This document shows positions 8,331-26,379 of a stretch of 64,000 bases of DNA, piece after piece. Under the pieces are notes generated by a model. The model ran no database searches. It was not told the origin of the DNA and saw nothing but the letters and a program-made list of their open reading frames with translations. How positions within the stretch are numbered: position 1 is the first letter of the stretch; each line of letters begins with the position of its first letter. The stretch comes from Desulfotomaculum nigrificans DSM 574 (lineage in GTDB: Bacteria > Bacillota > Desulfotomaculia > Desulfotomaculales > Desulfotomaculaceae): the NCBI RefSeq assembly GCF_000189755.2, contig NZ_KI912183.1, positions 2,569,755 through 2,633,754 of the forward strand, read 5' to 3'. The position numbers were made by a program, and so were the translations under genes.

Positions 8331-8335
8331 TACTT

Positions 8336-8396
8336 AAAGGTCCAGCTTCGCTATTCGACCTTCGCTTACATGTACTCAACAGCTAATAGCTGGACC
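8336..8396 (+). repeat. Intergenic inverted repeat between leuB and cimA
   Basis: AAAGGTCCAGC (8336-8346) pairs with GCTGGACC (8389-8396), enclosing a heptamer-like AGCTAAT/AGCTGGA segment. Arms and inner motif recall those at 1943-2066 and 5313-5448. Confidence 0.45.
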
Positions 8397-8430
8397 CCAA
8401 ATAAGCGCAGTATAAGCTAAATGAGGTGGT

Positions 8431-9999
8431 TTGCTTGGGGATTTAACACCGACCATCAAAATCTATGACACCACCCTGCGGGACGGCACCCAGGGCGAAG
8501 GGGTTAGTTTTTCCGCTGAGGATAAAGTTAAAATTGCCCTGCGGTTGGATGAAATGGGCTTTCACTATATTGAAGGCGGCTGGCCCGGTTCTAACCCCAA
8601 GGATATGGAGTTTTTTGAACTGATAAAGCAGTACCCCTTAAAACAGGCCGTGGTTGCTGCCTTTGGCAGCACCTGCCGCCCCGGTGTGCCGGCCCATCAG
8701 GACACTAACCTTAAACGTCTGGTTGAGTCCGGCGTTAAACTGGCCACCATCTTCGGCAAGGCCTGGGATTTCCATGTAACCAAAGCCCTTAATACCACCC
8801 TGGAAGAGAACCTGCGCATGGTGAGGGATTCAGTTGCCTACCTGAAAAGCCAGGGACTAAAGGTGTTCTTTGATGCGGAGCACTTCTTTGACGGTTTTAA
8901 GGCCAACCCCGATTATGCCCTGGCAGTGTTGCAAGCGGCAGCCGGTGCCGGGGCCGATGCAGTGGTACTCTGCGATACCAACGGTGGCAGTCTGCCCTTT
9001 GAAGTACAGCAGGCCGTAAGCCGGGTAGTGCGGCAATTGCCGGGAGTACCGGTGGGTATTCATGCCCATAACGACGGTGAATTGGCGGTGGCCAATACCA
9101 TTATGGCCGTACAGGCCGGGGCCACCCAGGTGCAGGGAACGGTAAACGGTTTGGGCGAGCGATGTGGTAATGCCAACCTTTGCTCGGTTATTCCCAACCT
9201 GGCTTTTAAACTGGGCTATCAAACCATACCCCGGGAAAACCTGGTCTACCTGACGGAATTGTCCCGCTTCGTTTATGAAGTGGCCAACTTAAATCCGGTG
9301 GCTAACCAACCCTTTGTGGGAGAAAGTGCCTTTGCTCATAAGGGGGGCATCCATGTCAGTGCCCTGATGAAAGAGACCGGTACCTATGAACACCTGGCCC
9401 CGGAACTGGTGGGCAACCAGCGCCGGGTACTGATGTCCGAACTGTCCGGCCTGTCCAACCTGCTGTATAAATATAAAGAGTTACACCTGGACAAAAACAG
9501 TCCCGAAGGACGGCAGGTGCTGGAACAGCTGAAAAATATGGAGCACCGGGGCTACCAGTTTGAAGCGGCGGAAGGCTCCCTGGAGCTGATGCTGAGAAAA
9601 GCGGTAAACGGCTACCGGGAACCTTTTCAACTGGAGAGCATGCGGCTGATTTTGGAGATGCGGGAACAGCAGCCCATCTACTCAGAAGCAGTCATTAAGC
9701 TGAGAGTAGGCGAGGAACTGGTGCATACCGCTGCCGAAGGCAACGGCCCGGTCAACGCTTTAGATAACGCTCTGCGCAAAGCCCTGGAAACCATTTATCC
9801 CCGGGTGGCTGACCTGCGGCTGCTGGATTACAAAGTTCGGGTACTGGAAGAAAAAGCAGGTACTGAGGCTTTGGTTCGGGTTTTAATTGAAACAGGTGAC
9901 GGTAAGAAAACCTGGGGCACAGTGGGTGTGTCAACTAATATTATCGAAGCCAGCTGGCAGGCCCTGGCCGACAGTATGGCCTATGGTCTGCTGGAATGA
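8431..9999 (+). CDS. cimA: (R)-citramalate synthase
   Basis: 522 residues, typical of CimA. The N-terminal DTTLRDGTQGEGVSFS (GTQ, not the LeuA GEQ), GIHAHNDGELAVANT, the NGLGERCGNANL signature and a C-terminal LeuA-type dimer domain are seen. It condenses pyruvate and acetyl-CoA to citramalate, which LeuCD and LeuB can carry to 2-oxobutyrate for isoleucine without threonine. The start is uncertain: TTG 8431 lies only one base after AGGTGG, and no better in-frame start is visible. Its last 30 codons recur as a diverged relic at 24555-24646. Confidence 0.92.
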   Translation: MLGDLTPTIKIYDTTLRDGTQGEGVSFSAEDKVKIALRLDEMGFHYIEGGWPGSNPKDMEFFELIKQYPLKQAVVAAFGSTCRPGVPAHQDTNLKRLVESGVKLATIFGKAWDFHVTKALNTTLEENLRMVRDSVAYLKSQGLKVFFDAEHFFDGFKANPDYALAVLQAAAGAGADAVVLCDTNGGSLPFEVQQAVSRVVRQLPGVPVGIHAHNDGELAVANTIMAVQAGATQVQGTVNGLGERCGNANLCSVIPNLAFKLGYQTIPRENLVYLTELSRFVYEVANLNPVANQPFVGESAFAHKGGIHVSALMKETGTYEHLAPELVGNQRRVLMSELSGLSNLLYKYKELHLDKNSPEGRQVLEQLKNMEHRGYQFEAAEGSLELMLRKAVNGYREPFQLESMRLILEMREQQPIYSEAVIKLRVGEELVHTAAEGNGPVNALDNALRKALETIYPRVADLRLLDYKVRVLEEKAGTEALVRVLIETGDGKKTWGTVGVSTNIIEASWQALADSMAYGLLE

Positions 10000-10157: not shown

Positions 10158-12215
10158 GTGAAAGAACTAACTGTAATCACTAATGATACAGTGACTCTTG
10201 AGACCATTCAACGTCAAATCTATTCTCTCATGGGTGAAGATATTAAAGTAAAGGGTTACAATCTGGAGGATGACGAGGCTCAAAAGATACAGGGACGTGT
10301 TGTTCTGATTTCCTGCTCCAGTATAGCCCCGGATATATTTAAAAAATATACCTTTGAAGATCAGGTACATATTATTGTGGCTCAACGATCGATTGACAAG
10401 TCTGGTATTAAAAAATTGCTTGGAGTTAAACCTGGAACCAGGGCAGCGGTCATAGTTGGGCATCGGAATGCTTCAGAGGTAACGATACAAGCAATTAAGG
10501 GGTTAGGTATTACCCAAATAGACTTTGTAACTGAGCAGGAATATTATAACGGTACACGTAATGTGGATATCATCATTACGCCGGGAAAATCTCTGCGGAT
10601 ACATGCTGATATACCGGTGCTGGATATAGGCATACGTAATTTAGATGTTACCACTGTAGTGGAAATTCTAATGGCTTTTCATATATATGATAAATACAAA
10701 TGCCATGTATCGAATAAATATACGAGCCCGATAATTGAATTAAGCCAGGAACTTCATAGTGCATTTACACAAATCTCTCAAATGAAAGATTCATTAGAGA
10801 GTTTAGTGAATGCCAGCCATGACGGGGTAATAATGGTTGACAAAAATCTCGAAATTTCAGTGATAAATAATAAGGTCTGTGAAATGTTCAGAATTAAAAA
10901 AGAAAATGTACTTGGCAAATGTTTCTCAAGGGAATTGGGCTTTCCCTGTGACTGGCAGGAGGTTTTAAACAATACTGTTATAAGGTATGGCGAAAACAGC
11001 CTGCTAATAGGTGTGACTCCGGTTTCCTCTTGTGATGGGGACATCGGCAGAGTGGTGACGTTCCGGGATGTTACTGAAATTCAAAAGTTGGAGCAAATAG
11101 TTCGTAAAAATACTACAGCCCGTGGCCACGTTGCTCATTATACCTTTAAAGATATTATTGGCGAAAGCCCTGAAATAGTGGAAACTAAGAAAATAGCAGC
11201 TCAGATAGCCAATACAGAAGGAACGACTCTAATATATGGGGAAAGTGGTGTGGGCAAGGAATTATACGCCCAGGCTATTCATAGAAGTTCTAAGCGAAAA
11301 AATGGGCCTTTTGTAGCCATAAACTTTTCTGCACTACCGGATAATCTTGTAGAAAGTGAGTTGTTTGGTTACGAAGAAGGGGCTTTTACTGGTGCCCGAA
11401 AGGGTGGCAAACCTGGCTTTTTTGAAATGGCACACGGGGGAACTATTTTTCTCGATGAAATTGGAGATGCGGATCTCTACATTCAAACCCGGTTACTAAG
11501 GGTTCTACAAGAAAAAGAGGTTATGAGGATAGGGTCAACCAAAGTAATTCCAGTTGATGTCAGGGTAATCACTGCAACTAACAAATACCTACCTCAACTG
11601 GTAAAAGAGAAAAAGTTCAGAGAAGACCTTTATTATCGGCTCAATGTGCTGCCTTTAAGTATTCCACCTCTAAGAAAACGTGGCAAAGATGTTTTACTAC
11701 TTTTTGATCACCTATGTACACAAAAGGGGCTTACTTTTCGGTTGACTGAAAGTGCACAGGAGTTGTTACTGAGCCATTGTTGGCCTGGAAATGTGCGTGA
11801 ATTGGTAAATTTAATAGAATATCTTTGTTGCACAAAACCTTATAATGATGTGATCGATATTAAAGATTTTCCTATTCACCTTATTGAATCGGTCACATCT
11901 TGCCCGGTACCGGTTCATATAAATCATTCTCCTCTGGTTACAAGCGATAAAAATGAGAAAAACACCTGCGATAACTATGGATTAACCAACGAATTAGTTA
12001 AAGTTCTAAAGCAAATATATATAAACCAGCAAAACGGGATTAATTCAGGGAGGAGAAGCTTAGCCAACTTAATTCCCGGCATTACCGAGGCAAGGATCAG
12101 ATCGATTCTGAAGGAACTGGAAAAAAAGGGTTTGTTAGAATTAAACCTCGGGAGAAAGGGAGCCCGGTTAACATCCAGGGGTATTGAGGCAATAAAAACA
12201 ACTGATATAATTTAA
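10158..12215 (+). CDS. Sigma-54-dependent transcriptional activator (PAS, AAA+, winged helix)
   Basis: 685 residues; GTG 10158 behind GGGAGTGAGAGG. Layout: an N-terminal sensory region of about 200 residues, possibly PrpR_N-like; a PAS domain (about 210-315, SLVNASHDGVIMVD onward); then an AAA+ domain with Walker A GESGVGKE near residue 361 and the sigma-54 contact loop GAFTGA near 408. The C-terminus is not the usual Fis-type helix-turn-helix but looks like a winged helix (SLANLIPGITEARIRSILKE, then KKGLLELNLGRKGARLTSRG). Consensus -24/-12 promoters at 12375 and 20648 are its likely targets. It probably senses a small carboxylate or aldehyde from the neighbouring pathway; the ligand is unknown. 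The coding sequence is clearly more AT-rich than the leu genes. Confidence 0.9.
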   Translation: MKELTVITNDTVTLETIQRQIYSLMGEDIKVKGYNLEDDEAQKIQGRVVLISCSSIAPDIFKKYTFEDQVHIIVAQRSIDKSGIKKLLGVKPGTRAAVIVGHRNASEVTIQAIKGLGITQIDFVTEQEYYNGTRNVDIIITPGKSLRIHADIPVLDIGIRNLDVTTVVEILMAFHIYDKYKCHVSNKYTSPIIELSQELHSAFTQISQMKDSLESLVNASHDGVIMVDKNLEISVINNKVCEMFRIKKENVLGKCFSRELGFPCDWQEVLNNTVIRYGENSLLIGVTPVSSCDGDIGRVVTFRDVTEIQKLEQIVRKNTTARGHVAHYTFKDIIGESPEIVETKKIAAQIANTEGTTLIYGESGVGKELYAQAIHRSSKRKNGPFVAINFSALPDNLVESELFGYEEGAFTGARKGGKPGFFEMAHGGTIFLDEIGDADLYIQTRLLRVLQEKEVMRIGSTKVIPVDVRVITATNKYLPQLVKEKKFREDLYYRLNVLPLSIPPLRKRGKDVLLLFDHLCTQKGLTFRLTESAQELLLSHCWPGNVRELVNLIEYLCCTKPYNDVIDIKDFPIHLIESVTSCPVPVHINHSPLVTSDKNEKNTCDNYGLTNELVKVLKQIYINQQNGINSGRRSLANLIPGITEARIRSILKELEKKGLLELNLGRKGARLTSRGIEAIKTTDII

Positions 12216-12374: not shown

Positions 12375-12392
12375 TTGGCATCATTATTGCAA
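12375..12392 (+). promoter_or_regulatory. Sigma-54 (-24/-12) promoter of the AOR operon
   Basis: TTGGCATCATTATTGC has GG at 12377-12378 and GC at 12389-12390 with exactly 10 bases between them, as required for RpoN. The predicted start is near 12402, before the ribosome site AAGGGAGG (12413-12420). The adjacent regulator carries the GAFTGA loop, which makes this assignment strong. Confidence 0.85.
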
Positions 12393-12427: not shown

Positions 12428-13132
12428 ATGAATGTAGATTTAGAAAAGTGTTTGGGATGCGGAAGTTGTGTTCCATACTGCCCAATGAGGGCTCTGTCAA
12501 TAGTGGAGGATCAACTTTCAATTAACCATGATGAGTGTGTAGAATGCAATATTTGTTACCGGGCCAATGTCTGCCCGACCGAAGCCCTCTTAATTACGGA
12601 GTTAACCTGGCCAAGGATAGTAAGAAACGTATTTAGTGATCCTCTCATGTCTCATGATACCACCGGTGTTCCCGGTCGTGGTACTGAAGAAATGAAAACA
12701 AACGATGTTACAAATCGCTTTGTAGAAGGGCACCTTGGCATAGCCATTGAAATGGGCCGGCCAGGTACCGGAACACGGTTCTATGATGTAGAAAAGGTAG
12801 CCCAGGCGGTAGCTAAATTTGGTGTTAAGTTTGAAGTGCTTAACCCTGTTACTAGCTTGATGACTGATACTGTAACCGGCAAAATCAAGGAAGATGTTTT
12901 AAATGAAAAAGTTCTCTCAGCTATCATCGAATTTGATATCGAGGAAGAAAAAGGGCCTCAGGTGTTACAAGCAATTAAGGAGGTTTCCTCACAAATTGAA
13001 ACTGTTTTTAGCCTGGATGTATGCGCAAAAGTACCATCCGATAATTCATTGCCTTCCGAAAAAGCAGCTTATACCAGCGGAATAACACCCAGCATAAACG
13101 GAAAAACAAATGTCGGATTAGGTAGAGTTTAA
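12428..13132 (+). CDS. Dicluster ferredoxin-like protein with unknown C-terminal domain
   Basis: 234 residues. The first 60 hold two [4Fe-4S] motifs, CLGCGSCVPYCP and CVECNICYRANVCP (the second with one extra residue before the last Cys). The remaining 170 residues form a domain I do not recognise, starting PGRGTEEMKTNDVTNRF. It is first in the sigma-54 operon and upstream of AOR, so it is a candidate electron acceptor or partner subunit of AOR. RBS AAGGGAGG, ATG 12428. Confidence 0.8.
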   Translation: MNVDLEKCLGCGSCVPYCPMRALSIVEDQLSINHDECVECNICYRANVCPTEALLITELTWPRIVRNVFSDPLMSHDTTGVPGRGTEEMKTNDVTNRFVEGHLGIAIEMGRPGTGTRFYDVEKVAQAVAKFGVKFEVLNPVTSLMTDTVTGKIKEDVLNEKVLSAIIEFDIEEEKGPQVLQAIKEVSSQIETVFSLDVCAKVPSDNSLPSEKAAYTSGITPSINGKTNVGLGRV

Positions 13133-13152
13133 GAAAACAGGGGGGAATTTAG

Positions 13153-13779
13153 ATGACACATACATTACACCGCGCCGGCACATGGGAAAATTTACAAAAC
13201 GATTATATTGTTTTTGCAATGGCTGCACAGAATGTCAACCGTGACGGGGCTGCTCCCAAACTTCGTAAGGCATTAGAGATAATTTTAAGCCACAACCCGG
13301 TTAATTTTGGGGACATGAAAACCGGCAATAAGTTTTCCGCCGGTGAACAGAAAGTGTTGGAAAAAATCCAAGATAATTCCATTGTACACGGGGTTTTCAC
13401 AGATCAAAGTCAGGTTGCTGCAGTTCTTAGCGATTTAAAAAAAGCAGATTTAGGGGTATCGGTTGTAGTATCCGGTTTATTGGAACATGTAGATCAATGT
13501 TGTCAAAGCATAAATCAACAAAGACATACAGTAGAGCACTCTCTTGGGATCTGGGGGAATATTGCGAGGCTTCCAGAGAAAGAAACGCTTCAGGTTACCA
13601 CTATGTGCGGACACGGTATGGTCGCCGCCAGCCTGGTTGAATATCTGGTGGAAGAAATAAAAAATAACAGGCAATCAGTTAAGGAAGCTGCACAGGAACT
13701 GGCAAGAATGTGTCACTGTGGAGTAGTAAACCCGGTTAGGGCTGCAGTTTTATTAGAAGAAATGGCCAGAAGGGGTTAA
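13153..13779 (+). CDS. Conserved unknown protein with Cys/His motifs, AOR operon
   Basis: 208 residues, no family recognised. No signal peptide or membrane segment is seen. Two patches look functional: TTMCGHGMVAASLVEYL near residue 155 and MCHCGVVNPVRAAVLLEE near 190, with a CC pair near 115. Grouped Cys and His residues suggest a metal or cluster site. It lies between the ferredoxin-like gene and the DUF2148 gene in the AOR operon, preceded by GGGGG at about 13140, so a role in electron transfer or in cofactor assembly for AOR is plausible but unproven. Confidence 0.65.
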   Translation: MTHTLHRAGTWENLQNDYIVFAMAAQNVNRDGAAPKLRKALEIILSHNPVNFGDMKTGNKFSAGEQKVLEKIQDNSIVHGVFTDQSQVAAVLSDLKKADLGVSVVVSGLLEHVDQCCQSINQQRHTVEHSLGIWGNIARLPEKETLQVTTMCGHGMVAASLVEYLVEEIKNNRQSVKEAAQELARMCHCGVVNPVRAAVLLEEMARRG

Positions 13780-13828
13780 CAAACCATTCTTAGCTAACCA
13801 ATTATTTGTTTTAAAAAGGTGGTTGCCT

Positions 13829-14341
13829 ATGAATGTACTTGAACAAGTGGCCAGTCTGATGGAATTATCTGCTCATACCGCGCCAAAGACAGGTGGAAAA
13901 AGCTTTATCACGACCAAAATAATTAAGGATGATGCGCTTAAAGTTCTGGCCGATGAAATGGTTCACTATGGGGTAAATACAGGTAGAAAAGATTTTGACC
14001 GGGACGCCAAGGGGGTAGCTGCTGCAGATGCGGTCTTATTGATAGCGTTAAAAGACCCTAAAGCCGCCGGGCTGGATTGTGGTGCCTGTGGGTTGGAAAA
14101 GTGCAGTTATTTAGAACAAGTTGAAGGACCGCAATTTGTGGGGGGTATATGTGCCTGGCGATTGATAGACCTAGGGATAGCTTTGGGTTCAGCTGCCAAA
14201 ACGGCAAGTATACACAATGCTGACAATAGAATCATGTACAGGGTCGGAGTTGTGGCAAGGGCCAAGGGATATATAGACGGTCAAATTGTTGTGGGAATTC
14301 CTCTGGCAGGCCAGGGGAAGAACATCTTTTTTGACCGTTGA
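13829..14341 (+). CDS. DUF2148 ferredoxin-domain protein
   Basis: 170 residues from ATG 13829, chosen because AAAGGTGG (13815-13822) is six bases upstream; an in-frame TTG at 13823 is too close to it. The sequence has the DUF2148 hallmarks LDCGACGLEKCSYLEQ and GGICAWRLIDLGIALGSAAK, with several conserved cysteines probably binding an Fe-S cluster. Function is unknown in the family. It sits between the unknown protein and the MoaD-like gene and is likely co-transcribed. Confidence 0.8.
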   Translation: MNVLEQVASLMELSAHTAPKTGGKSFITTKIIKDDALKVLADEMVHYGVNTGRKDFDRDAKGVAAADAVLLIALKDPKAAGLDCGACGLEKCSYLEQVEGPQFVGGICAWRLIDLGIALGSAAKTASIHNADNRIMYRVGVVARAKGYIDGQIVVGIPLAGQGKNIFFDR

Positions 14342-14425
14342 GTTGGAATGTATATATTAACATCTAAAGGATAAAAAAACCAGCATTAATTGGCAGAAAT
14401 GGTTAGGAAGAAGGGGGTTAGTCAC

Positions 14426-14737
14426 ATGGCTAAGGGAAAGGGGGAGCGGCCTGGCAAGGTTACCATAAAGCTACTGGGACATATATCAAATTTTGTAGGA
14501 ACAAACGAGATTTACGTTGACTGGTACGAAGGTGATAAGGTTGAGGTTATTGTTAGCAGAATGATCGAGCAATTTCCTCCTAAGGCTGCTAGTCTGTTTT
14601 ATAACATGGAGAAACGTATCTTATCCGGGGCAATTTTAGTAATTAATGACACCGTTATTAAAATGCCTGAGGAATTTAATAGATCTATATATCCTGAAGA
14701 TAAGGTTAAGGTCTTACCCGTTCTAGTCGGTGGATAA
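14426..14737 (+). CDS. MoaD/ThiS-like sulfur carrier protein
   Basis: 103 residues from ATG 14426, eight bases after AGAAGGGGG; earlier in-frame starts (TTG 14390, ATG 14399) lack a good ribosome site. The beta-grasp fold is suggested by VTIKLLGHISNFVG and VLVGG at the end, the C-terminal GG that is adenylated and thiocarboxylated in MoaD. Directly upstream of AOR, it probably supplies the dithiolene sulfur of the tungstopterin. Family is clear; the dedication to AOR is inference from position. Confidence 0.85.
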   Translation: MAKGKGERPGKVTIKLLGHISNFVGTNEIYVDWYEGDKVEVIVSRMIEQFPPKAASLFYNMEKRILSGAILVINDTVIKMPEEFNRSIYPEDKVKVLPVLVGG

Positions 14738-14775
14738 TTAATTGATCAACTGATCCTAAGATTGGGGGTTCGTAT

Positions 14776-16632
14776 ATGAAGGGTTATGCAGGAAAGTTAC
14801 TGCGAGTTAACCTGACAACAGGAGCTATCGGTTCGGTGGAATTAAAGCCTGAGGTAGCCAGGAAATACCTGGGGGGCCGGGGATTGGCAGCACGTATTCT
14901 ATTCGATGAAGTTCCGGCTGGGGCAGACCCGCTGGGGCCTGAAAACAAGGTAGTAATCGGGGCAGGCCCTCTGGCTAACAGCAAAATTCCCGGCAGTACC
15001 CGCTACATAGTTTGCACCAAGTCTCCTCTTACCGGTGGTTGGGGGGATGCGCATGCCGCGGGTGCCCTTGGGCCTATGATTAAGAAAGCCGGCTTTGATG
15101 CCATCATCATCGAAGGAAGTTCGCCAAAACCAGTATATATTTATGTAAATAACGGGAGTGCTGAAATCAGGGATGCCTCACACCTGTGGAGTATGGAGAC
15201 TGGGGCATGCAGGGATCAAATTATCACGGAAACAAATCCAGGTGCAGAAGTAGCTGCCATAGGAATTGCGGGCGAGAACCTTGTTCCCTATGCCTGTGTA
15301 ATCAGTGAGTACAACCGGGCAGCCGGTCGCAGCGGCACAGGAGCTGTGCTTGGCGCTAAGAAGGTAAAAGCGGTTGCCTTCTATGGAGAAGCCCAGTTGG
15401 AAATGGCTGATCCAGAAAAGGTCGACAGAATCCGTAAGCAAATGATACTTGATATTAATAACAGTCCTGCCTGTCAGGGCTTTAGGACCAATGGCACCGC
15501 TAACGGTGTGGCTCCCCACAATGCGTTGGGAATGTATCCTGCCTATAACTTCAAAGAGGGTGTATCCGACAATATTGATTTAGTCAGCGGGGAAACCATG
15601 ACTCGCACCATACTGGCCAAGAGAGAAGCCTGTCCTAATTGCCCGGTCTTTTGCAGAAGAATTGTAAAAGTAGATTCAGGTCCTTATGCCAGTGATTCCC
15701 GCTATGGTGGACCTGAGTTTGAAACTATCGGTTCCCTTGGTACTTGTGTTGGTATCTATGATCTGGCAGCTATTACCAAGGCTAATGAACTTTGTAATAA
15801 GTTTGGGGTAGACACAATTAACGTAGGGTTGTCTATTGCCTGGGCTATGGAGTGCTATGAAAAAGGTATCCTGACTAAGGAAGATACAGGCGGACTGGAT
15901 CTTACCTGGGGTAATGTGGATACAGTACTCTATCTGATTGAAGCTATTGCTAAGCGGCAGGGTTTGGGGGAGCTGCTTGGTAAAGGCCTGAAAGTAGCTT
16001 CTGAAATTGTAGGAAAGGGCTCCGATGCATTTGCTATGCAGGTTAAAAACCAAGCCTTCCCGGTTCACATGCCCCGTGGAAAGATTGGCCAGGGCCTCTC
16101 ATTTGCCACCTCGAACCGTGGTGCCTGCCACTGCCAAGGAACCCACGACACCAATATGGAAGCCGGCAAGATAATGCCGGATATCGGATTTGATGAGAAG
16201 TTTAAGGGGCTTTCCCGCTTAACCAAAGAACATAAAGCAGAGTTGGAAAAACTGGCCCAGGATATGAGGGGCTGGCAGGACAGTTTGATAGCATGCCGCT
16301 TCGTATCATGGGACTATGGCCCGACCACCCCGGCTACCTTTGCTGAATTATTAAACGCATTAACCGGCTGGGATGTAACTCCAAAGGAACTTATGGAAAT
16401 TGGTGAAAGAATATTTAACCTTTGCCGGATGTTCAATGTTCGTGAGGGAATGAACCGAAAGGATGATACCCTACCGGCCCGTTGTGGCGAATCGCTGCCG
16501 AGGGGGGCTACCGCCGGTTCCGTAATTACTAAGGAAGACCTAAACCGATTACTTGATGAGTATTATGAACTGCGCGGTTGGGATAACAATGGTATTCCTA
16601 CTCCGGAAAAGCTGAGATCTTTAGGGCTTTAG
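14776..16632 (+). CDS. aor: Tungsten-containing aldehyde ferredoxin oxidoreductase
   Basis: 618 residues, the usual AOR length. The N-terminus GKLLRVNLTTG and KYLGGRGLAARILFDE is diagnostic; the cluster ligands CPNCPVFC are at about 286, 289 and 293, with a fourth Cys at about 507 (SLIACRF), matching archaeal AOR spacing. It oxidises an aldehyde to the acid with ferredoxin through W-bispterin and [4Fe-4S]. The neighbouring dehydrogenase and glycerate kinase make glyceraldehyde or a related C3 aldehyde a reasonable guess. ATG 14776 follows TGGGGGTT. Confidence 0.95.
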   Translation: MKGYAGKLLRVNLTTGAIGSVELKPEVARKYLGGRGLAARILFDEVPAGADPLGPENKVVIGAGPLANSKIPGSTRYIVCTKSPLTGGWGDAHAAGALGPMIKKAGFDAIIIEGSSPKPVYIYVNNGSAEIRDASHLWSMETGACRDQIITETNPGAEVAAIGIAGENLVPYACVISEYNRAAGRSGTGAVLGAKKVKAVAFYGEAQLEMADPEKVDRIRKQMILDINNSPACQGFRTNGTANGVAPHNALGMYPAYNFKEGVSDNIDLVSGETMTRTILAKREACPNCPVFCRRIVKVDSGPYASDSRYGGPEFETIGSLGTCVGIYDLAAITKANELCNKFGVDTINVGLSIAWAMECYEKGILTKEDTGGLDLTWGNVDTVLYLIEAIAKRQGLGELLGKGLKVASEIVGKGSDAFAMQVKNQAFPVHMPRGKIGQGLSFATSNRGACHCQGTHDTNMEAGKIMPDIGFDEKFKGLSRLTKEHKAELEKLAQDMRGWQDSLIACRFVSWDYGPTTPATFAELLNALTGWDVTPKELMEIGERIFNLCRMFNVREGMNRKDDTLPARCGESLPRGATAGSVITKEDLNRLLDEYYELRGWDNNGIPTPEKLRSLGL

Positions 16633-16680: not shown

Positions 16681-17571
16681 ATGAAAAAGATCGGTTTCCT
16701 CGGTTGCGGAGCTATGGGTAAGGGTATGATTAAGAATCTGCTGAAGGCAGGGTATGAAGTTGTGGCTTATGATGTGTCTGCTCAAGCAGTGGAGAATGTA
16801 GTGGCCCTTGGGGCAACGGCCGGCAGCGACCCTGGAAGTATCGCTGCCGAGGTAGATGCTGTAGTGAGCAGCCTGCCTTCACCCCAGGTTGTTAAAGATG
16901 TAATGCTGGGCGAAAACGGAGTAGTGGCTAACCTGAAGGCAAACTTTATCCTGGATATGAGTACCATTGACCCTGGAACTGTAAAAGAAATCTATCAAGC
17001 TGCAAAGGGAAAGGGGTTAGGTTTCTTGGACTGCCCGGTGAGCGGTGGCCCTAGTGGAGCAGACCAGGGTACTTTGGCTATTATGGTGGGCGGAGACCAG
17101 GAAGTTTATGAAGCAGCTAAACCGGTTCTTGATGCTATGGGTACCAACATTTTCTATATCGGAGAAAGCGGTACAGCACAGGTAGTTAAGCTCTGCCACA
17201 ATATGATTGTGGCAGTAAATGCGGTAGCCCTGGGAGAGGCCTTCTTAACAGGTGCCAAAGCGGGCCTAAGCCCCAAAACCCTGGCCGCCGTGATTGCCAA
17301 GAGTGTCGGCCGGAGCGGTGTTCTAGAAATTTTTGGGCCGATCATTCTTGAAAATAATTATGACAACCCCAAGTTTATGTTGAAACATATGTACAAAGAT
17401 ATGGGCCTCTATATGAAGACCGTTGATGCAGTTAACATGTCATCTTACCTGGGTAACCTGGTTCATTCCCTCTACCGTTCCGCTATGCTGCAAGACAAAG
17501 GTGATAAAGACCATACTGCGGTTTGCCAGGTGTTGGAAGAACTGGCAGCTACTAAGATCCCCACTGAATAG
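16681..17571 (+). CDS. Beta-hydroxyacid dehydrogenase (tartronate semialdehyde reductase-like)
   Basis: 296 residues. The N-terminal NAD(P) motif GFLGCGAMGKGM, the substrate signature LDCPVSGGPSGADQGTLAIMVGG and the catalytic Lys region QVVKLCHNMIVAVNAVALGEA define the 3-hydroxyisobutyrate / 2-hydroxy-3-oxopropionate dehydrogenase family. With glycerate kinase in the same regulon, reduction of tartronate semialdehyde to D-glycerate is the best guess; 3-hydroxyisobutyrate or other hydroxyacids remain possible. AAGGAGG before ATG 16681. Confidence 0.85.
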   Translation: MKKIGFLGCGAMGKGMIKNLLKAGYEVVAYDVSAQAVENVVALGATAGSDPGSIAAEVDAVVSSLPSPQVVKDVMLGENGVVANLKANFILDMSTIDPGTVKEIYQAAKGKGLGFLDCPVSGGPSGADQGTLAIMVGGDQEVYEAAKPVLDAMGTNIFYIGESGTAQVVKLCHNMIVAVNAVALGEAFLTGAKAGLSPKTLAAVIAKSVGRSGVLEIFGPIILENNYDNPKFMLKHMYKDMGLYMKTVDAVNMSSYLGNLVHSLYRSAMLQDKGDKDHTAVCQVLEELAATKIPTE

Positions 17572-17613: not shown

Positions 17614-18645
17614 ATGGGTAAAAAGCGAGCTTTAATTACTTTAGCCATAGTAACCCTGATACTGTCCCTAATCATTGCCGGATGTGGCAGTGGCAGCAAA
17701 AATGAGACGGCCCAGGGGAATAAGCAGGACGGGCAAAAAATTGTTATGAAGTTTGCAGCGGTTAACAACGGAACACACCCGGCTGTCGAGGCGCTTAAAA
17801 AAGTATTTAAGCCCCGTGTGGAAGAACTCACCAGGGGTAAAGTAGAAGTTCAAATTTTCGATAATGCCCAACTGGGCGGCGAGCGGGACGTAATGGAACA
17901 ACTGCAGTTGGGTACGGTTCAGGGGTCTTATATCAGCCCTGTGCTTGGTTCAATTGAACCTAAAATAAATATTTTGGATTTACCGTTCCTATTTAAGGAT
18001 GAGCAGCATGTTGATAAGGTATTAGACGGACCAGTCGGCGAAAAATTACTGGCTGATCTCCCCAGTAAAGGAATGCGTTGCCTGGGTTATATGGAAAACG
18101 GCTTCCGCGTAATTACGAACTCCAAGCGCCCCATCAACAAATTGGAAGACCTCAAAGGACTAAAAATAAGAACCCCGGAGGCTCCGGTATCGGTAGCGAT
18201 CTTCAAATCGCTGGGGGCCAATGCGACTCCGCTGGCCTTTAGCGAACTGTACAGCGCGCTACAACAGGGTGTAGTTGATGGCCAGGAAAATGCTTATAAC
18301 ACTGTAGCTTCGTCCTCTTTCTTCGAAGTTCAAAAGTATGTTGCTGAAACCAATCACATGTGGGGTAGCTATGCCATCCTGGTAAGTGAGAAGTGGTGGC
18401 AGGGATTGCCCAAAGATGTCCAGGAGGCAATTGCTCAAGCAGCTAAAGAGGCAAGTAAAGAGCAGCGTAAAATCTTCCGGGAGAAGACTGCTCAAAGTAA
18501 GCAAACTTGTATAGATAAGGGCATGCAGGTAACTCAGCCCGATTTAACTGAGTTTGTCAAGGCTGTTCAACCGGTCTATGACGATATGTTTAAACAGCAT
18601 CCTGACTTCAAAACCATCGTTGATGAGATTATGAAACTTAAATAG
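17614..18645 (+). CDS. dctP: TRAP transporter substrate-binding lipoprotein
   Basis: 343 residues. A signal peptide ends at a lipobox (LIIAGC, Cys near 28), followed by a Ser/Gly/Asn-rich linker. The body is DctP family: QLGGERDVMEQLQLGTVQG, DLPFLFKDEQH, and LKGLKIRTPEAPV, whose Arg normally holds the substrate carboxylate. It delivers an organic acid to DctQM. The position after AOR and the hydroxyacid dehydrogenase suggests a small hydroxy acid. RBS GAGGAGG, ATG 17614. Confidence 0.93.
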   Translation: MGKKRALITLAIVTLILSLIIAGCGSGSKNETAQGNKQDGQKIVMKFAAVNNGTHPAVEALKKVFKPRVEELTRGKVEVQIFDNAQLGGERDVMEQLQLGTVQGSYISPVLGSIEPKINILDLPFLFKDEQHVDKVLDGPVGEKLLADLPSKGMRCLGYMENGFRVITNSKRPINKLEDLKGLKIRTPEAPVSVAIFKSLGANATPLAFSELYSALQQGVVDGQENAYNTVASSSFFEVQKYVAETNHMWGSYAILVSEKWWQGLPKDVQEAIAQAAKEASKEQRKIFREKTAQSKQTCIDKGMQVTQPDLTEFVKAVQPVYDDMFKQHPDFKTIVDEIMKLK

Positions 18646-18655
18646 AACCTCCGGG

Positions 18656-18692
18656 AGGGGCGGGCCTTGGCCCCGCCCCTAACTATCTTTTT
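18656..18692 (+). terminator. GC-rich attenuator hairpin between dctP and dctQ
   Basis: Nine-pair stem (18656-18664 with 18672-18680), nearly all G-C, and a T-run at 18688-18692. It looks like a real intrinsic terminator inside the operon, and would let the binding protein be made in excess over the membrane subunits. The dctQ ribosome site AAGGGAGG begins right after it. Confidence 0.8.
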
Positions 18693-18707
18693 AAGGGAGG
18701 AGAGATA

Positions 18708-19208
18708 GTGGTGTCTTCGGAACATTGGCTTCATCGTCTCGACTGGCTGATAAATCGTATTACGGAGATACTAGTTGTATTTCTGTTTATCTCCATGGTA
18801 ATTCTTGTCTTTGCCCAGGTATATACCCGCTTTGTGACTAACAATTCCCTTACCTGGAGTGAAGAATTATCCCGTTTCACTATGGTGTGGATGGTGTTTC
18901 TTGCTTCCACGCTTGCCTTCAAACAAGGCTCCCATATTACAGTGGACAATTTGGTCCAGAAACTTCCCCCCGGCTTAAACAAAGTAGTTCGTCTAGTTGC
19001 ATATGCTTTTATGCTTATCTTTCTGGGAGTCATCTTGTGGGGTGCTTACAAGGTATTGCCAACAGTGGCTCTACAAAAATCAGCTGCTAATAGCATCGTC
19101 ATGGCCTATGTATACGCTGCTATACCTGTAAGCATGTTCCTTATCGCGGTTGAGGTTATTAAAGGCATTGTTAAAACCCTTTCAGAAAGAGGGAATCAAA
19201 CACCATGA
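18708..19208 (+). CDS. dctQ: TRAP transporter small membrane subunit
   Basis: 166 residues with four hydrophobic segments, typical DctQ. The motif around NSLTWSEELSRFTMVWMVFLASTLAFKQG is characteristic (SEE and R in the second segment). GTG 18708 or the next GTG 18711 follows AAGGGAGG. It bridges DctP and DctM. Its end overlaps the dctM start (ATGA). Confidence 0.92.
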   Translation: MVSSEHWLHRLDWLINRITEILVVFLFISMVILVFAQVYTRFVTNNSLTWSEELSRFTMVWMVFLASTLAFKQGSHITVDNLVQKLPPGLNKVVRLVAYAFMLIFLGVILWGAYKVLPTVALQKSAANSIVMAYVYAAIPVSMFLIAVEVIKGIVKTLSERGNQTP

Positions 19209-20491
19209 TTGCCTTACTGGTATTTCTCGTATCACTCTTTTTCTTCATTCTACTTGGCGTACCTATCTTTATGAGCCTGGGATTAAGTTCTCTAACCATT
19301 TGGTTATGGCACTTTGGTTCCCTCGAGCCATCTATCTTACTGCAGAAAATGTTTATCGGGCTTGACAGTTTTCCTTTGATGGCTATCCCCTTTTTTATGC
19401 TGGCCGGGGAGCTAATGAATACCGGGGGAGTATCACGGCGGTTAGTTTCCTTTTCCCAGAGCTTAATTGGCTGGGTTCGTGGTGGCCTTGGTTTTGCTGT
19501 GGTTATAGCATGTATGTTTATGGCCGCTATCCTTGGTTCTGCTTCAGCCACTGCAGCCATGATTGGTATTGTTATGATCCCGGCTATGGCTGAAAGAGGT
19601 TACAACCGTGATTTCTCTTCGGCCTTGATTGCCTCTGCAGGATCTATCGGCCCCATTATTCCACCCAGTATCCCATTCATCATTTACGGGGTAATCGGGG
19701 AGGTGTCCATTGCTAAGCTGTTTGTGGCAGGTTATATCCCGGGCATTATGATGGGCCTTGCCTTCATGATCTATACCTTTTTCTATGCTAAGAAACATAA
19801 TTACCTGGCCGGAAAATTCCCTACTTTAAAGGAATTATGGGTTTCTTTTAGAGAGGCAATTTTAACTTTACTTTTGCCGGTAATCATTATGGGAGGCATT
19901 CTCGGGGGTATTTTCACCCCGACCGAGGCTGCAGTGGTGGCCGTTGTGTATGCCTTTATAGTGGGAGCTTTCATTTACAGGGAAATCAAAATCAAAGATA
20001 TACCTCAAATATTCTTGCGGGCTGCCAACAGTACTGCGATGGTTCTGATGGTTATGGCCACTGCCACGCTGCTGTCCTGGGTGCTGACTCTAGAGCAAAT
20101 TCCCCAGTTGGTTACCAGCGGTATGCTTTCCATCTCCTCCAGCCCGGTGATTTTTCTGCTGGTAGTCAACGCATTTATGATCATCGTAGGAATGTTCTTG
20201 GACGCAGTTTCTGCCCTTACGATCTTAACTCCTGTTTTGCTCCCTGCTGCTAAGGCGCTTCAGATTGACCCGGTACTCTTCGGTGTTCTATTAGCTGTGA
20301 ACCTTAGCATAGGGGTACTCACTCCTCCGGTCGGGCTTAACCTTTACGTTACCTCAAGTATTGCAAAAATCAGCCTTGTACAGATAAGTAAGGCGGTTAT
20401 GCCGTTTATTTACTTGATCGTAATCGCCCTTTTAATTATGATTTTCTTCCCTGCTACGGTTACCTATTTGCCAAGTATCCTGATTAAATAG
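19205..20491 (+). CDS. dctM: TRAP transporter large permease subunit
   Basis: 428 residues, about 11-12 hydrophobic segments. Family patterns are seen: GVPIFMSLGLSSL, FPLMAIPFFMLAGELM, GSASATAAMIG, IPPSIPFIIYGVIGEVSI and LTPPVGLNLYV. It is the Na+-coupled channel of the tripartite transporter. It starts at the ATGA overlap with dctQ and closes the sigma-54 AOR-TRAP operon. Confidence 0.94.
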   Translation: MIALLVFLVSLFFFILLGVPIFMSLGLSSLTIWLWHFGSLEPSILLQKMFIGLDSFPLMAIPFFMLAGELMNTGGVSRRLVSFSQSLIGWVRGGLGFAVVIACMFMAAILGSASATAAMIGIVMIPAMAERGYNRDFSSALIASAGSIGPIIPPSIPFIIYGVIGEVSIAKLFVAGYIPGIMMGLAFMIYTFFYAKKHNYLAGKFPTLKELWVSFREAILTLLLPVIIMGGILGGIFTPTEAAVVAVVYAFIVGAFIYREIKIKDIPQIFLRAANSTAMVLMVMATATLLSWVLTLEQIPQLVTSGMLSISSSPVIFLLVVNAFMIIVGMFLDAVSALTILTPVLLPAAKALQIDPVLFGVLLAVNLSIGVLTPPVGLNLYVTSSIAKISLVQISKAVMPFIYLIVIALLIMIFFPATVTYLPSILIK

Positions 20492-20647: not shown

Positions 20648-20665
20648 TTGGCATTGATATTGCTA
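20648..20665 (+). promoter_or_regulatory. Sigma-54 (-24/-12) promoter of the MFS-glycerate kinase unit
   Basis: TTGGCATTGATATTGC has GG at 20650-20651 and GC at 20662-20663, with exactly 10 bases between, and shares its TTGGCAT-n-ATTGC layout with the promoter at 12375. It lies about 310 bases upstream of the MFS start, so the mRNA would carry a long leader. Confidence 0.8.
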
Positions 20666-20978: not shown

Positions 20979-22283
20979 ATGACAGATAAGCGTGGATTAC
21001 TACCTGTTCGATGGCGGATTGCCGTTCTTCTGTTTTTAAGCTATGTAGTCTGGTATATGGACCGTGTTAATATCTCAATTGCCGGTCCGGTAATGATGAA
21101 GGACTTCGGCTGGTCAGCAGCCCAGTTCGGAATGGTTCAATCGGCTTTCTTTATTGGCTATGCTTTTACCCAGGTACCCGGTGGTTGGTTAGCGGACCGT
21201 TTCGGTGGTTCAAAGGTTATTATGTTTGGTACCTTGTGGTGGTCGTTATTTGTTTTTCTGACTCCCCTTGGTGCCACTCTCGGATCAATGATGATTATTC
21301 GTGCATTAATGGGTGTCGGGGAAGGCGTTAACGCCCCGACCCACACTTCCCTGACCGCCCGCTGGATGCCCAGGAGAGAAGCAGGAAGGGCAATGGGATT
21401 CTATTACATCGGTATGCCTGTGGGTATTATGATAACCATGCCCCTTACAGTATGGATTATCGAGAACTGGGGCTGGAAAATGGCTTTTTATTCATTTGCC
21501 TTTGTAGGTATCATCTGGTGTGCCCTATGGTGGTGGTACGGTCGGGATAAGCCCGAACAACACCCCAGTATTACTAAGGAAGAATTGGATCTTATTAAGT
21601 CTGACCAGGATCCACAGGAAGTAATGGATCAACCGACTGCTTGGAAGACAATTTTTACCAATAAATCTGTTTGGGGTCTGTCTATCTCCTACTTCTTCCA
21701 CAACTACCTATGGTATTTGTATATGACCTGGTTACCAGGGTACCTTGCTATGGGGCGTGGTTTTAGTCTGGTGAAAACAGGTATCTATGCAATGCTTCCC
21801 TATATAGTAGCATGTTTTGCAATGCCCCTGGGTGGTTATTTAACCGATACTTGGACTAAGAAATACGGTCCCAATATCGGTCGGCGTTTACCAATTGTCA
21901 TAGGCATGAGCGGTTGTGGCATTTTCTTAGTCCTTGCAGCTTATACACCAAATGCTTACGTGGCTGTCGCTTATATTTCCACCTCAATCGGTTTCTTAAC
22001 CCTGAACTATGGAGCATTCTGGTCTATGCCTCTTAACCTGTCTTCCAAGGACGGCGGAGTGATCAGCGGTCTTATGAATACTCTTGGCACTGTAGCCGGG
22101 GTATTTGCACCAACAATTACTGGTTTTATCATTACCTTCTATAACAACAGGTTTGAAAATGCCCTATACTTTGGTGCCTTCCTGGCATTGGTTGGGGTTG
22201 TAGTCCTGTGGGCTATCTGTAAGGTGAAACCTATTGAATTCAAAAAACCCGTGAACATTACAGGTAACAAGATATCTGTTTAG
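20979..22283 (+). CDS. MFS transporter, anion:cation symporter (ACS) type
   Basis: 434 residues with 12 predicted hydrophobic segments. MFS signatures: YMDRVNISIAGPVMMKDFGWS in the first segment and GGWLADRFGG in the loop 2-3 region. ACS members carry organic anions such as hexuronates, glucarate and phthalate. Its place ahead of glycerate kinase under sigma-54 control suggests a sugar-acid or hydroxy-acid substrate, in parallel with the TRAP system. ATG 20979 follows GGGGGGA. Confidence 0.88.
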   Translation: MTDKRGLLPVRWRIAVLLFLSYVVWYMDRVNISIAGPVMMKDFGWSAAQFGMVQSAFFIGYAFTQVPGGWLADRFGGSKVIMFGTLWWSLFVFLTPLGATLGSMMIIRALMGVGEGVNAPTHTSLTARWMPRREAGRAMGFYYIGMPVGIMITMPLTVWIIENWGWKMAFYSFAFVGIIWCALWWWYGRDKPEQHPSITKEELDLIKSDQDPQEVMDQPTAWKTIFTNKSVWGLSISYFFHNYLWYLYMTWLPGYLAMGRGFSLVKTGIYAMLPYIVACFAMPLGGYLTDTWTKKYGPNIGRRLPIVIGMSGCGIFLVLAAYTPNAYVAVAYISTSIGFLTLNYGAFWSMPLNLSSKDGGVISGLMNTLGTVAGVFAPTITGFIITFYNNRFENALYFGAFLALVGVVVLWAICKVKPIEFKKPVNITGNKISV

Positions 22284-22363
22284 TAACCTCGTACCAATCC
22301 TTAAAGGTATGTATGAACAGGGCCCAATTGTAACTTTTAAACTGTAACTTAAATGTTGCTTCG

Positions 22364-22391
22364 TATCGGGGCATCATGTGATGCCCCGATA
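22364..22391. repeat. Hairpin upstream of glycerate kinase
   Basis: Perfect inverted repeat of 12-13 bases, ATCGGGGCATCA / TGATGCCCCGAT, with almost no loop. No T-run follows. It lies between MFS and the glycerate kinase start and may stabilise or partly terminate the transcript. Confidence 0.45.
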
Positions 22392-22412
22392 TATAACTTC
22401 GGGGGTGAGATT

Positions 22413-23564
22413 GTGAAGGTTTTGGTTGCCGTTGACTCTTTTAAAGGGAGTCTTTCCAGTATTGGAGTTGCCCAATCAATCACCACCGGGATCCACCGGG
22501 TTTTTCCTGAAGCCGAGATACTCTCAGCACCTATGGCAGACGGTGGGGAAGGTACGGTGGAAGCACTGGTAACAGCTGCCAGGGGGGAATTCATTAGCAT
22601 CACTGTAACAGGTCCACTAGGCACACTTGTGGACGCTCAATTCGGATTATTACCGAACGGAACTGCGGTGCTTGAAATGGCTGCTGCCTCCGGGTTACCT
22701 TTGGTGCCGGAAAATAAAAGAGATCCCAGAATTACTACGACCTACGGTACAGGTGAGCTGATTAAAGCCGCTCTTAACCACGGGGCCACCAAAATAGTGA
22801 TGGGTATTGGGGGCAGCGCTACTAACGATGGCGGGGCTGGAATGGCTCAGGCCCTTGGTGTACGATTACTTGATAAAGAGGGTAGGGAATTGGGTTACGG
22901 GGGCGGTCAGCTACACAAACTGGAACGTATTGATATAACCGGATTAGACCAACGAATAAAGAATCTTAAAATGCAAATTGCCTGTGATGTACAAAATCCT
23001 TTGTGTGGCCCAACCGGGGCTTCTGCAGTATACGGTCCGCAGAAGGGGGCCACTCCTGAAATGGTGCAGGAGCTGGATGACAATCTGCACCACTTCGCCC
23101 GGATAATAAAAGAACAGCTTGGAATTGATGTTATTGATGTTCCCGGGGCCGGAGCAGCCGGAGGTCTTGGCGCAGGATTAATAGCCTTTACCGGTGCTGA
23201 ATTAAAGTCTGGTGTGGAAATTGTTCTGGAAACTATTAATATAGATAAATTGCTGCAGCAAGTTGATCTGGTTATTACAGGTGAAGGACAAATTGACAAT
23301 CAATCCGTATATGGCAAAGTACCGGTAGGTGTTGCCATCAGAGCCAAAAAGTATAAATTACCGGTGGTAGCGATTGTGGGTGGAATTGGGCCTGGGTTTG
23401 AGAAAGTCTATGACTATGGTATAGACTCCGTAGTAACCATTGTAAACGGTCCGGTTAATTTAAAAGAAGCAATGTTAAATGCAGCTTCACTTGTTGCCGA
23501 CGCCGTGGAACGTACATTTAGACTGTTAAAGATTGGCAAAGGCTTAAGGGGTGGTAATCAATGA
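22413..23564 (+). CDS. glxK: Glycerate kinase (GarK/GlxK family)
   Basis: 383 residues from GTG 22413, which follows GGGGGTGAG; the longer frame from 22353 would include a hairpin and lacks a ribosome site. Family signatures: VAVDSFKGSLSS at the start, PMADGGEGTVEALV, GIGGSATNDGGAGMAQALG and TGEGQIDNQS. It phosphorylates D-glycerate to a phosphoglycerate (2-phosphoglycerate in enterobacterial members) and joins the pathway to glycolysis. It overlaps the next gene by ATGA. Confidence 0.93.
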   Translation: MKVLVAVDSFKGSLSSIGVAQSITTGIHRVFPEAEILSAPMADGGEGTVEALVTAARGEFISITVTGPLGTLVDAQFGLLPNGTAVLEMAAASGLPLVPENKRDPRITTTYGTGELIKAALNHGATKIVMGIGGSATNDGGAGMAQALGVRLLDKEGRELGYGGGQLHKLERIDITGLDQRIKNLKMQIACDVQNPLCGPTGASAVYGPQKGATPEMVQELDDNLHHFARIIKEQLGIDVIDVPGAGAAGGLGAGLIAFTGAELKSGVEIVLETINIDKLLQQVDLVITGEGQIDNQSVYGKVPVGVAIRAKKYKLPVVAIVGGIGPGFEKVYDYGIDSVVTIVNGPVNLKEAMLNAASLVADAVERTFRLLKIGKGLRGGNQ

Positions 23565-24547
23565 CTGTCAGAACAAAAGCAGCTCTATTACGTGGCCCCT
23601 ATGATATTACTCTGGTAGACCGAGAACTGACTTGTGCAGAAGATGAAGTGATTGTAAAAAACCATTTGATTGGTATTTGCGGGTCCGACAAGACATTTTT
23701 CCGTGGGCAGCTTCCACCTAAAACAGCAGAGTTCCGCCAGGAGCCAAAATTCCCTTTCTATTTAGGGCATGAGAGTGGGGGCACAGTGGTGGAAGTTGGC
23801 GCTAAAGTGCGTGAATATAAACCGGGGGACGAGGTTATTGCCTTTGGGTGGAATAACAATTTCGCCGAGTATTTTAAAGCTAAAGTATGGGAATTACAAC
23901 CGGTTCCGGAAGGCCTGGATAAGGATTTGGCATGTTTGGGAGAACCAATTGCTTGTGCCATGTATTCAGGCATGAATTCAGGCGTACAGTTGGGAGATAC
24001 AGTAGTGGTGATAGGGGGGGGGTTTGCCGGTCAAATTATTGCTCAATGTGCCAAAAAAAAGGGTGCAGAGAAAGTTGTGGTAGTTGATGTGCTGGACGGG
24101 AAGCTGCAGTTGGCTAAGAAACTGGGTGCAGATATTATAATCAATTCAACCAGAGAAAACGTAGTAGAAGCTGTGAAGGTACTGACCCAGGGAAGAGGGG
24201 CTGATGTGGTAGTGGAGGCTGCGGGTAGCGAAGCTTCCATTAACCTGTGCACGGAGATAATAAAACATAATGGCAAATTTGTTTGGTACAGCTGGCTGAC
24301 TACCCCCGTTAAATTAAATATCAGTCGCTGGCATGATGATGGTCTAGAGTTTATCAACACCTGCTTAGTCCATCATACATACCAGCAGCGCTATATATGG
24401 ACACCGGTAGCTTTACGCCCGGTCATTCAGGGACTTATAGATATTAAGCCGCTCATTACACACGAATTTAAACTTGACCAGATAAAAGAAGCCTTTAAGT
24501 TAGTTGATAAGGATGATAGCGCAATTAAAGTAGTATTAAGGCCTTAA
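23561..24547 (+). CDS. Zinc-type alcohol/polyol dehydrogenase (MDR family)
   Basis: 328 residues. The catalytic-zinc region is seen (GICGSDKTFF near residue 38, LGHESGGTVVEVG near 68, LGEPIACAMYSG near 128) together with the Rossmann motif GGGFAGQIIAQCAKKKG. The four-cysteine structural zinc lobe of typical ADHs is missing (the loop runs directly to NFAEYFKAKVW), which explains the short length. It probably oxidises a hydroxyl of the pathway substrate; substrate unknown. It ends the second sigma-54 unit. Confidence 0.85.
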   Translation: MTVRTKAALLRGPYDITLVDRELTCAEDEVIVKNHLIGICGSDKTFFRGQLPPKTAEFRQEPKFPFYLGHESGGTVVEVGAKVREYKPGDEVIAFGWNNNFAEYFKAKVWELQPVPEGLDKDLACLGEPIACAMYSGMNSGVQLGDTVVVIGGGFAGQIIAQCAKKKGAEKVVVVDVLDGKLQLAKKLGADIIINSTRENVVEAVKVLTQGRGADVVVEAAGSEASINLCTEIIKHNGKFVWYSWLTTPVKLNISRWHDDGLEFINTCLVHHTYQQRYIWTPVALRPVIQGLIDIKPLITHEFKLDQIKEAFKLVDKDDSAIKVVLRP

Positions 24548-26110: not shown

Positions 26111-26379
26111 ATCAAATCTTTCAGAATAGCTATCTCAAGGTCTTTTTCCCCGAGCAGCTTTTTGAGTTGTTCATTTTCCTTGGAAATCTGATTATAATCC
26201 TGAACCAATTCAGCATCGGATGTTTTGGTAAGTTTATCTTTTTTGTGTTCCCTAACCCAACGACCAACCATATTGGGATTCAAATCATACCGCCTTGCTA
26301 CTACTGCATTATTTCCTGTTTCTAGGGCTTCCTGAATAACTTGCTGTTTAAAATCAATAGTGTACTTTTTCCTGGTCAT
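26071..26379 (-). CDS. IS3-family transposase orfA
   Basis: 102 residues: an N-terminal helix-turn-helix (KYTIDFKQQVIQEALETG, VARRYDLNPNMVGRWVREHK) and a C-terminal leucine-zipper coiled coil (ISKENEQLKKLLGEKDLEIA). It is the DNA-binding half of the OrfAB transposase and ends in an A-rich slippery stretch near 26100, where orfB would be joined by -1 frameshifting. Intact, but its orfB partner is dead. Confidence 0.88.
   Translation of the reverse strand: MTRKKYTIDFKQQVIQEALETGNNAVVARRYDLNPNMVGRWVREHKKDKLTKTSDAELVQDYNQISKENEQLKKLLGEKDLEIAILKDLIKKKNPHLLTKLK

Follow-up and report, generated by a model that had tools for sequence, protein, structure and literature searches.

Does the gene run that leads up to aldehyde ferredoxin oxidoreductase (AOR) in Desulfotomaculum nigrificans DSM 574 serve AOR as one unit? 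In the window, which here means the whole 64,000-nucleotide stretch of contig NZ_KI912183.1 that was analysed, the run at 12428-16632 holds five co-directional open reading frames (ORFs) of the plus strand. These are a ferredoxin-containing gene (FDX), a gene for a 208-residue protein (X), a DUF2148 gene, a MoaD-like gene and AOR, separated by 20, about 49, about 84 and 38 nt. A preliminary description had placed five genes of one operon here, whose positions are confirmed, and had proposed a possible unit dedicated to AOR; the run itself continues past 16632. Our results divide this apparent AOR operon into an AOR and MoaD part and an independent FDX–X part. The latter part is a two-gene pair in its own right, whose members are almost always found together. 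We put at about one half the probability that they are two subunits of one undescribed iron-sulfur oxidoreductase, which would act on small organic acids, often hydroxy- or sugar acids, here within a predicted sigma-54 regulon that may lead to glycerate. The genes, their near-obligate pairing, their invariant residues, their contexts and the promoter motifs are the observations from which this reading starts.

FDX and X form a near-obligate gene pair

FDX (12428..13132, plus strand, 234 aa) consists of a 2[4Fe-4S] ferredoxin domain (about residues 1-57) and a C-domain without family. The window protein matches Fer4 at 38.6 bits (cut-off 21.1), and Fer4-type matches fall in its first part with none confined to the remainder, in agreement with the earlier account of a dicluster ferredoxin carrying a family-less domain. 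Eight cluster cysteines of the N-domain are invariant in 74 sequences. In the same sequences R84, E88, K90, R111, E168 and K226 of the C-domain are invariant, and N92 and N228 nearly so. In PDB fold searches the matches of FDX (confident AlphaFold model, pLDDT 93) reached Z 8.4 and mostly fell on its ferredoxin domain, so that the C-domain was barely covered.

X (13153..13779, plus strand, 208 aa) had been described as a protein of no recognised family, and this stands for Pfam, NCBIfam and the PDB. The window X has no Pfam match, and its NCBIfam rows are all insignificant, the best having E 0.0084 and 15.7 bits (cut-off 151). Moreover, 79 X members gave no convincing Pfam or NCBIfam family, and a search of the X profile against the PDB gave nothing credible. 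Invariant in the 79 sequences are H6, R7, D17, G101, G135, C152-G-H154, C187-x-C189 and N193. The two patches noticed in advance, MCGHGM (151-156) and MCHCGV (186-191), are both there, and it is in them that this family, which is a real one, is most conserved. Of 128 X ORFs with at least 180 aa, 125 have C187 at a spacing of 35 from C152, and mean column identity in the X and FDX alignments is 40-43%, an enzyme-like conservation. The confident AlphaFold model of X (pLDDT 95) has a helical hairpin (159-170, 176-186) with the loop of C152-H154 at one end and that of C187-C189 at the other, an arrangement that should, as modelled, bring the two motifs together. No close fold match was found for X in the PDB: the best Z was 5.2, and the PII-like, ferredoxin-like and designed-protein rows represent common arrangements. 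The MCGHG motif may resemble one of the Proline racemase / DAP epimerase superfamily; a single one of the 79 members matches the DAP_epimerase profile, weakly (E 0.07).

The pairing of the two genes was counted in 107 stretches, where an FDX C-domain ORF lies directly upstream of 121 of 134 X ORFs. This count used a profile of the C-domain only; a wider profile also matched ordinary ferredoxins, and one false pair (L036) was removed. The 13 X ORFs without upstream FDX comprise four tandem second copies, six at a stretch edge, one fragment and two solitary genes, and the three FDX C-domain ORFs without X are fragments. The tandem copies are in L073, L074, L095 and L113. The two apparently solitary X, both of Acidobacteria (L120, L124), follow unrelated kinds of ORF, 549-607 aa long. 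Across 398 genomes the FDX C-domain, searched without the ferredoxin part, was found in 25 and X in 26, with all 25 in common; X of the 26th genome is a 33-residue fragment. The FDX and X profiles were built partly from genomes within this set; among the 12 positive genomes new to the profile search, 11 have both genes. The idea that FDX and X are copies of each other was rejected (hhalign 1.8%).

The D. nigrificans genome has one X, and eight congeners have none. Single-sequence search found X in 14 of 200 genomes, and profile search in 26 of 398, own genome included. Several genomes have multiple copies (9 in G133, 4 in G145 and 4 in G191), and several of the G133 copies are beside their own transporter. 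A scan of named genome contigs added 98 X relatives, of which 80 were kept. Their record titles name Firmicutes/Bacillota, Deltaproteobacteria, Chloroflexi, Acidobacteria, Gemmatimonadetes, Nitrospirae, Methylomirabilota and others, mostly as metagenome-assembled genomes, and no X relatives were confirmed in viral contigs.

Three loci (L046, L057, L065) duplicate L081, L037 and L043, with L057 being the same contig as L037. They are excluded from the 102-locus and 106-row counts used below and kept in the counts of pairing, spacing, gene runs and the five families (107 stretches). Possible further duplicates between the genome set and the named contigs remain in the counts. L121 and L133 are outside the 102 loci, as no X was called there after overlap filtering, and X under 160 aa are excluded from the 106-row set of trees and partners. 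Gene names in other loci, such as glxK, were assigned by eye from cluster representatives; family scans covered the representatives of TctA/B/C, GntR, PdxA, CoA-transferase, FAH, IlvD and some others.

AOR, MoaD and DUF2148 beside the pair

The window AOR (14776..16632, plus strand) is full length, with 249 bits for AFOR_N and 450 bits for AFOR_C (cut-offs 29.8 and 27), and its C286, C289, E316 and C507 are common to all 13 aligned AOR sequences (one a duplicate). The MoaD/Urm1-like gene (14426..14737, plus strand; ORF from 14390, likely ATG at 14426) ends in VLVGG. The GG end expected of a MoaD-like carrier is thus borne out, with family profiles weak and below their cut-offs (TIGR01687 31.3 bits vs 49.5; Urm1 19.4 vs 21.8). 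For the Cys-rich product of gene 3 (13829..14341, plus strand; TTG ORF from 13823, likely ATG at 13829), which has a putative Fe-S motif, the DUF2148 identity holds at 99.3 bits for PF09918 (cut-off 25).

Distances between genes were counted in 14 genomes of our own choice, namely D. nigrificans, seven congeners and six others with X, with short X fragments excluded. Of 33 matches to the MoaD model, most of them below its cut-off, 26 lie within 2.5 kb of AOR. The MoaD-like gene is a partner of AOR, and linkage of MoaD and AOR genes is already described by Iyer et al. 2006 (PMC1779556). DUF2148 occurs in 5 of 107 stretches (3 distinct), and 2 of 5 DUF2148 matches in the 14 genomes are within 5 kb of AOR; its association with AOR or FDX–X is loose.

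The FDX–X pair behaves differently. In 11 of the 102 loci AOR is no more than eight genes away from X, or in 12 when an edge fragment in L072 is counted. In the 14 genomes, 5 of 24 X are within 5 kb of AOR and 6 of 83 AOR are within 5 kb of X. AOR is present in 148 of 200 genomes and X in 14, one genome (G043) has X and no AOR, and D. nigrificans itself has seven AOR homologues, of which one contains an internal stop, and two CODH over cut-off for its one X. Because the pair mostly occurs without AOR, it is improbable that FDX–X serves AOR specifically. The preliminary description had stated that its unit would fail if the small genes occurred mostly without AOR, and this is what was found for FDX and X. 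Of the dedicated unit, MoaD as AOR partner therefore survives, and FDX and X as a general AOR maturation unit do not; that general role was rejected on the neighbourhood and genome counts.

The AOR link nevertheless seems real in a subset of loci, as suggested by one sister locus and by a recurrent gene set. Besides the window, one locus, L037, has all five families. This locus holds FDX, X, CooF, MoaD, a transposase-like ORF of the opposite strand, AOR, an MFS gene, a 3-hydroxyisobutyrate dehydrogenase (HIB)-type enzyme and a 104-aa DUF2148 ORF; the latter is shortened, and that genome has no PF09918 match. In a quick tree of 106 X sequences, the X of the window and of L037 are nearest relatives (SH-aLRT 98). 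The HIB-type gene, AOR and FDX–X are together in the window, L037, L041, L053 and L054. MoaD is in four of these five, and beside the AOR of L041 there is a weak partial match. The AOR-linked X are scattered on the tree, since the 14 AOR-linked rows of 106 need at least 10 changes.

Gene neighbourhoods, promoters and a possible function

Within eight genes of X in the 102 loci, TTT transporters were found in 37, TRAP transporters in 15, either of them in 50 and CODH-like genes in 28; any of these or AOR is present in 71. Among enzymes, those seen most often beside the pair are a CooF-like ferredoxin, the CODH homologue and an FAD-dependent NAD(P)H oxidoreductase (FNOR), in 30, 29 and 23 of 106 rows. 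In one metagenome-assembled contig (L103:5864-7984), FDX has a Fer4_20 and Pyr_redox_2 (GltD/NfnB-like) unit inserted before the C-domain. This insert, together with the CooF-like, CODH-like and FNOR partners, suggests that electrons are exchanged with NAD(P)H.

The CODH-like partner, which the window lacks, is homologous to D. nigrificans CODH (hhalign 100%, E 3.6e-45). An alignment was made of 26 such sequences beside FDX–X (391-603 aa; L068:1214-2698 and 25 others), leaving out two shorter ones. Four B-cluster cysteines are kept in all 26, whereas the four C-cluster cysteines checked are absent in 22 and kept in L035, L082, L107 and L134. Hence the 22 should not oxidise CO, and the other four may be linked to it. 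Judged by these residues, the CODH-like proteins without C-cluster are possibly electron-transfer or docking proteins with no role in CO chemistry. The general idea that FDX–X produces CO for a neighbouring CODH was rejected on the same count.

Other neighbours include LarA, PdxA, CoA-transferase III, FAH, IlvD, PanB, RraA-like, amidase and oxamate carbamoyltransferase subunit genes, and this diversity across loci suggests that substrates probably differ between paralogues. Genes resembling by eye the zinc alcohol dehydrogenase of the window (cluster-10) are near FDX–X in 15 loci (one duplicate). Same-strand runs of just FDX, X and a transporter are found in L034, L039 and L101, and L059 adds one short ORF. 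Upstream of FDX–X in L058 (1901-7278), one run holds a CoA-ligase-domain protein (FdrA-like), AllG (oxamate carbamoyltransferase subunit) and an amidohydrolase; by their families these genes suggest purine or oxamate breakdown.

In the window, a sigma-54 dependent regulator gene (AAA+, PAS, PrdR/PrpR-like; 10158..12215, plus strand) precedes the run. It matches Sigma54_activat at 223 bits, its best NCBIfam rows are PrdR and PrpR, below cut-off, and it is the presumed activator of the operon. Downstream of this gene and 37 nt 5′ of the FDX start codon is an exact -24/-12 sigma-54 promoter motif, TGGCATCATTATTGC (12376..12390, plus strand). After AOR the run continues with a 3-hydroxyisobutyrate dehydrogenase / tartronate semialdehyde reductase-type enzyme (16681..17571, plus strand; all NCBIfam rows below equivalog cut-offs) and the TRAP transporter DctPQM (17614..20491, plus strand; DctP 17614-18645, DctQ 18708-19208, DctM 19205-20491). 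A second exact motif (20649..20663, plus strand) precedes a gene for an MFS sugar-acid-type transporter (20979..22283, plus strand; MFS_1, best NCBIfam row of D-galactonate transporter type, below cut-off). This is followed on the plus strand by glycerate kinase of GlxK type (22353..23564; TIGR00045 504 bits, cut-off 168) and a zinc-dependent medium-chain alcohol dehydrogenase (23561..24547).

Exact sigma-54 motifs number 2 in the 64 kb vs 0.37 expected. Taken by itself the count is modest evidence; the placement of the motifs weighs more. Such motifs are present in 19 of 167 loci (a raw count, with some loci overlapping), and in L037 and L101 one is upstream of FDX. Between 12150 and 17700, terminator-like sites are at chance level (5 found vs 5.6 expected), and sigma-70 promoter-like sites number 15 vs 10.0 ± 3.6. 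Just 5′ of the regulator, 5504-9999 holds 3-isopropylmalate dehydratase and citramalate synthase genes, and 3′ of the glycerate kinase unit, at 25416-28696, there are several minus-strand transposase-like ORF pieces, identified by eye.

According to the oxidoreductase reading, X would carry the catalytic metal site, with C152, H154, C187 and C189 probably holding a site-differentiated Fe-S cluster. The invariant Arg, Lys and Glu of the FDX C-domain would help to bind the substrate carboxylate, and its 2[4Fe-4S] domain would carry electrons to or from an exchangeable partner. This partner may be a CooF-like ferredoxin with CODH-like protein and FNOR in some loci, AOR or CooF with AOR in others, and the inserted flavoprotein unit in one. 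In the window, FDX–X would belong to a predicted sigma-54 regulon with TRAP and MFS uptake, and AOR, with its cofactor supplied through its own MoaD, may handle an aldehyde of the same pathway. The presence of glycerate kinase and the tartronate-semialdehyde-type reductase in this putative regulon suggests that carbon may enter glycolysis as glycerate.

Several observations weigh against this proposal. No homologue with known function was found for FDX–X in Pfam, NCBIfam or the PDB, and the geometry of the putative metal site is taken from the secondary structure of the X model, not from coordinates. The X of L120 and L124 appear genuinely to lack FDX. The neighbours are chemically diverse and so point to no single reaction, and 31 of 102 loci have no AOR, CODH-like, TTT or TRAP gene within eight genes (some stretches are short). 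Glycerate kinase, named by eye, is near FDX–X in only five distinct loci besides the window, and the two window motifs are just modestly above chance, with two or more in 6 of 100 shuffles.

If the proposal is true, an enzyme family spanning several bacterial phyla has no Pfam or NCBIfam entry. Its neighbours would put it where the catabolism of organic acids begins, and CODH-like genes that lost the CO site would gain a setting. More tentatively, FDX–X may found an unknown class of two-subunit Fe-S enzymes, with a catalytic CGH...CxC cluster site in a fold that has no near match among solved structures. Such enzymes would carry out chemically new low-potential conversions of hydroxy- or oxo-acids, one example being an oxidative decarboxylation whose aldehyde product is then handled by AOR; the CODH scaffold would here be re-used without its CO site for electron transfer or docking. 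We regard this wider proposal as possible and less probable than the two-subunit enzyme itself.

Rival readings and known systems

A module for AOR maturation and electron supply, with FDX giving or taking electrons, X and DUF2148 handling sulfur or cofactor and MoaD providing sulfur for tungstopterin, would explain the gene order of the window, the presence of all five families in L037, the preference of MoaD for AOR (also in the published linkage of PMC1779556) and the sharing of runs by AOR and FDX–X in several loci whose X do not form a single clade. The scarcity of AOR near X, and of X near AOR, and the many genomes with AOR but no X, besides G043 with X alone, make it unlikely; as a counter-example, L037 is the reason to retain it as a rival. 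It is quite unlikely that FDX and X are instead a sensing pair, in which X binds a metabolite and FDX reads the redox state to control neighbouring transporter and catabolic genes. The N-terminal half of X weakly resembles PII-like and ferredoxin-like folds, at Z values so low that they represent common arrangements, and GntR-type genes are near X in 25 stretches, with other regulators also seen. However, no DNA-binding or signalling family was convincingly matched, many loci already hold conventional regulators, and the invariant Cys, His, Arg and Lys and the flavoprotein linkage suit an enzyme better.

Several neighbours (AOR, CODH-like, IlvD, LarA) are metal or Fe-S enzymes by family, which would fit an activase or repair factor for oxygen-sensitive metalloenzymes differing by locus. 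Yet the runs with just FDX, X and a transporter offer no such client, and a CODH-like protein whose active-site cysteines are missing has no need of being activated, so that this role appears distinctly improbable. A bacterial counterpart of McrC/McrD, accessory proteins of methyl-coenzyme M reductase (MCR) of which McrC has nitrogenase-like clusters, was suggested by a motif, by a 19-residue similarity of the window X to McrC (47%), by the gene order D-C as in mcrBDCGA, and by a weak Foldseek match of the FDX C-domain to McrD 8w33_B (E 0.054, TMq 0.25). But TIGR03264 has no match in the D. nigrificans genome at E up to 10, hhalign gives a probability of 2.6%, the McrC-like residues are conserved only in part within the X family, and the PDB profile search did not support homology; we consider this relation very improbable indeed.

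Partial coverage of the literature gave no publication recognisably about FDX–X, a result that does not establish absence from print. Compared with McrC/McrD (MCR activation complex, PMC12176620; McrD structure, PMC11301259), FDX–X shares a short sequence resemblance, possibly a ferredoxin-like fold, and gene order, whereas profile-level homology was not found (TIGR03264, hhalign). In the AOR-linked MoaD clusters of PMC1779556 a MoaD-like gene adjoins AOR, sometimes with a ferredoxin, as in the window; FDX–X is not in that set, within the part accessible, and mostly occurs without AOR. The Ni-CODH gene sets, including mini-CooS, resemble our loci in that a CODH homologue, a CooF-like ferredoxin and FNOR are the enzymes most often found beside FDX–X. 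They differ in that 22 of 26 FDX–X-linked homologues are without C-cluster cysteines and keep the B-cluster. The pair was not found in the accessible parts of the accounts of mini-CooS and CooF/FNOR contexts (PMC8776680) and of Ni-CODH clades (PMC6344411). As for the NADH-dependent phenylglyoxylate dehydrogenase, the regular neighbours of FDX–X include no recognised 2-oxoacid oxidoreductase subunit, and a pyruvate oxidoreductase-like gene (by eye, cluster 54) is present in three loci. The partner flavoprotein matches PadH at 292.6 bits (its best row) and the ferredoxin matches PadI at 67.8 bits, both below cut-offs, and both systems share a modular ferredoxin/FAD link to NADH.

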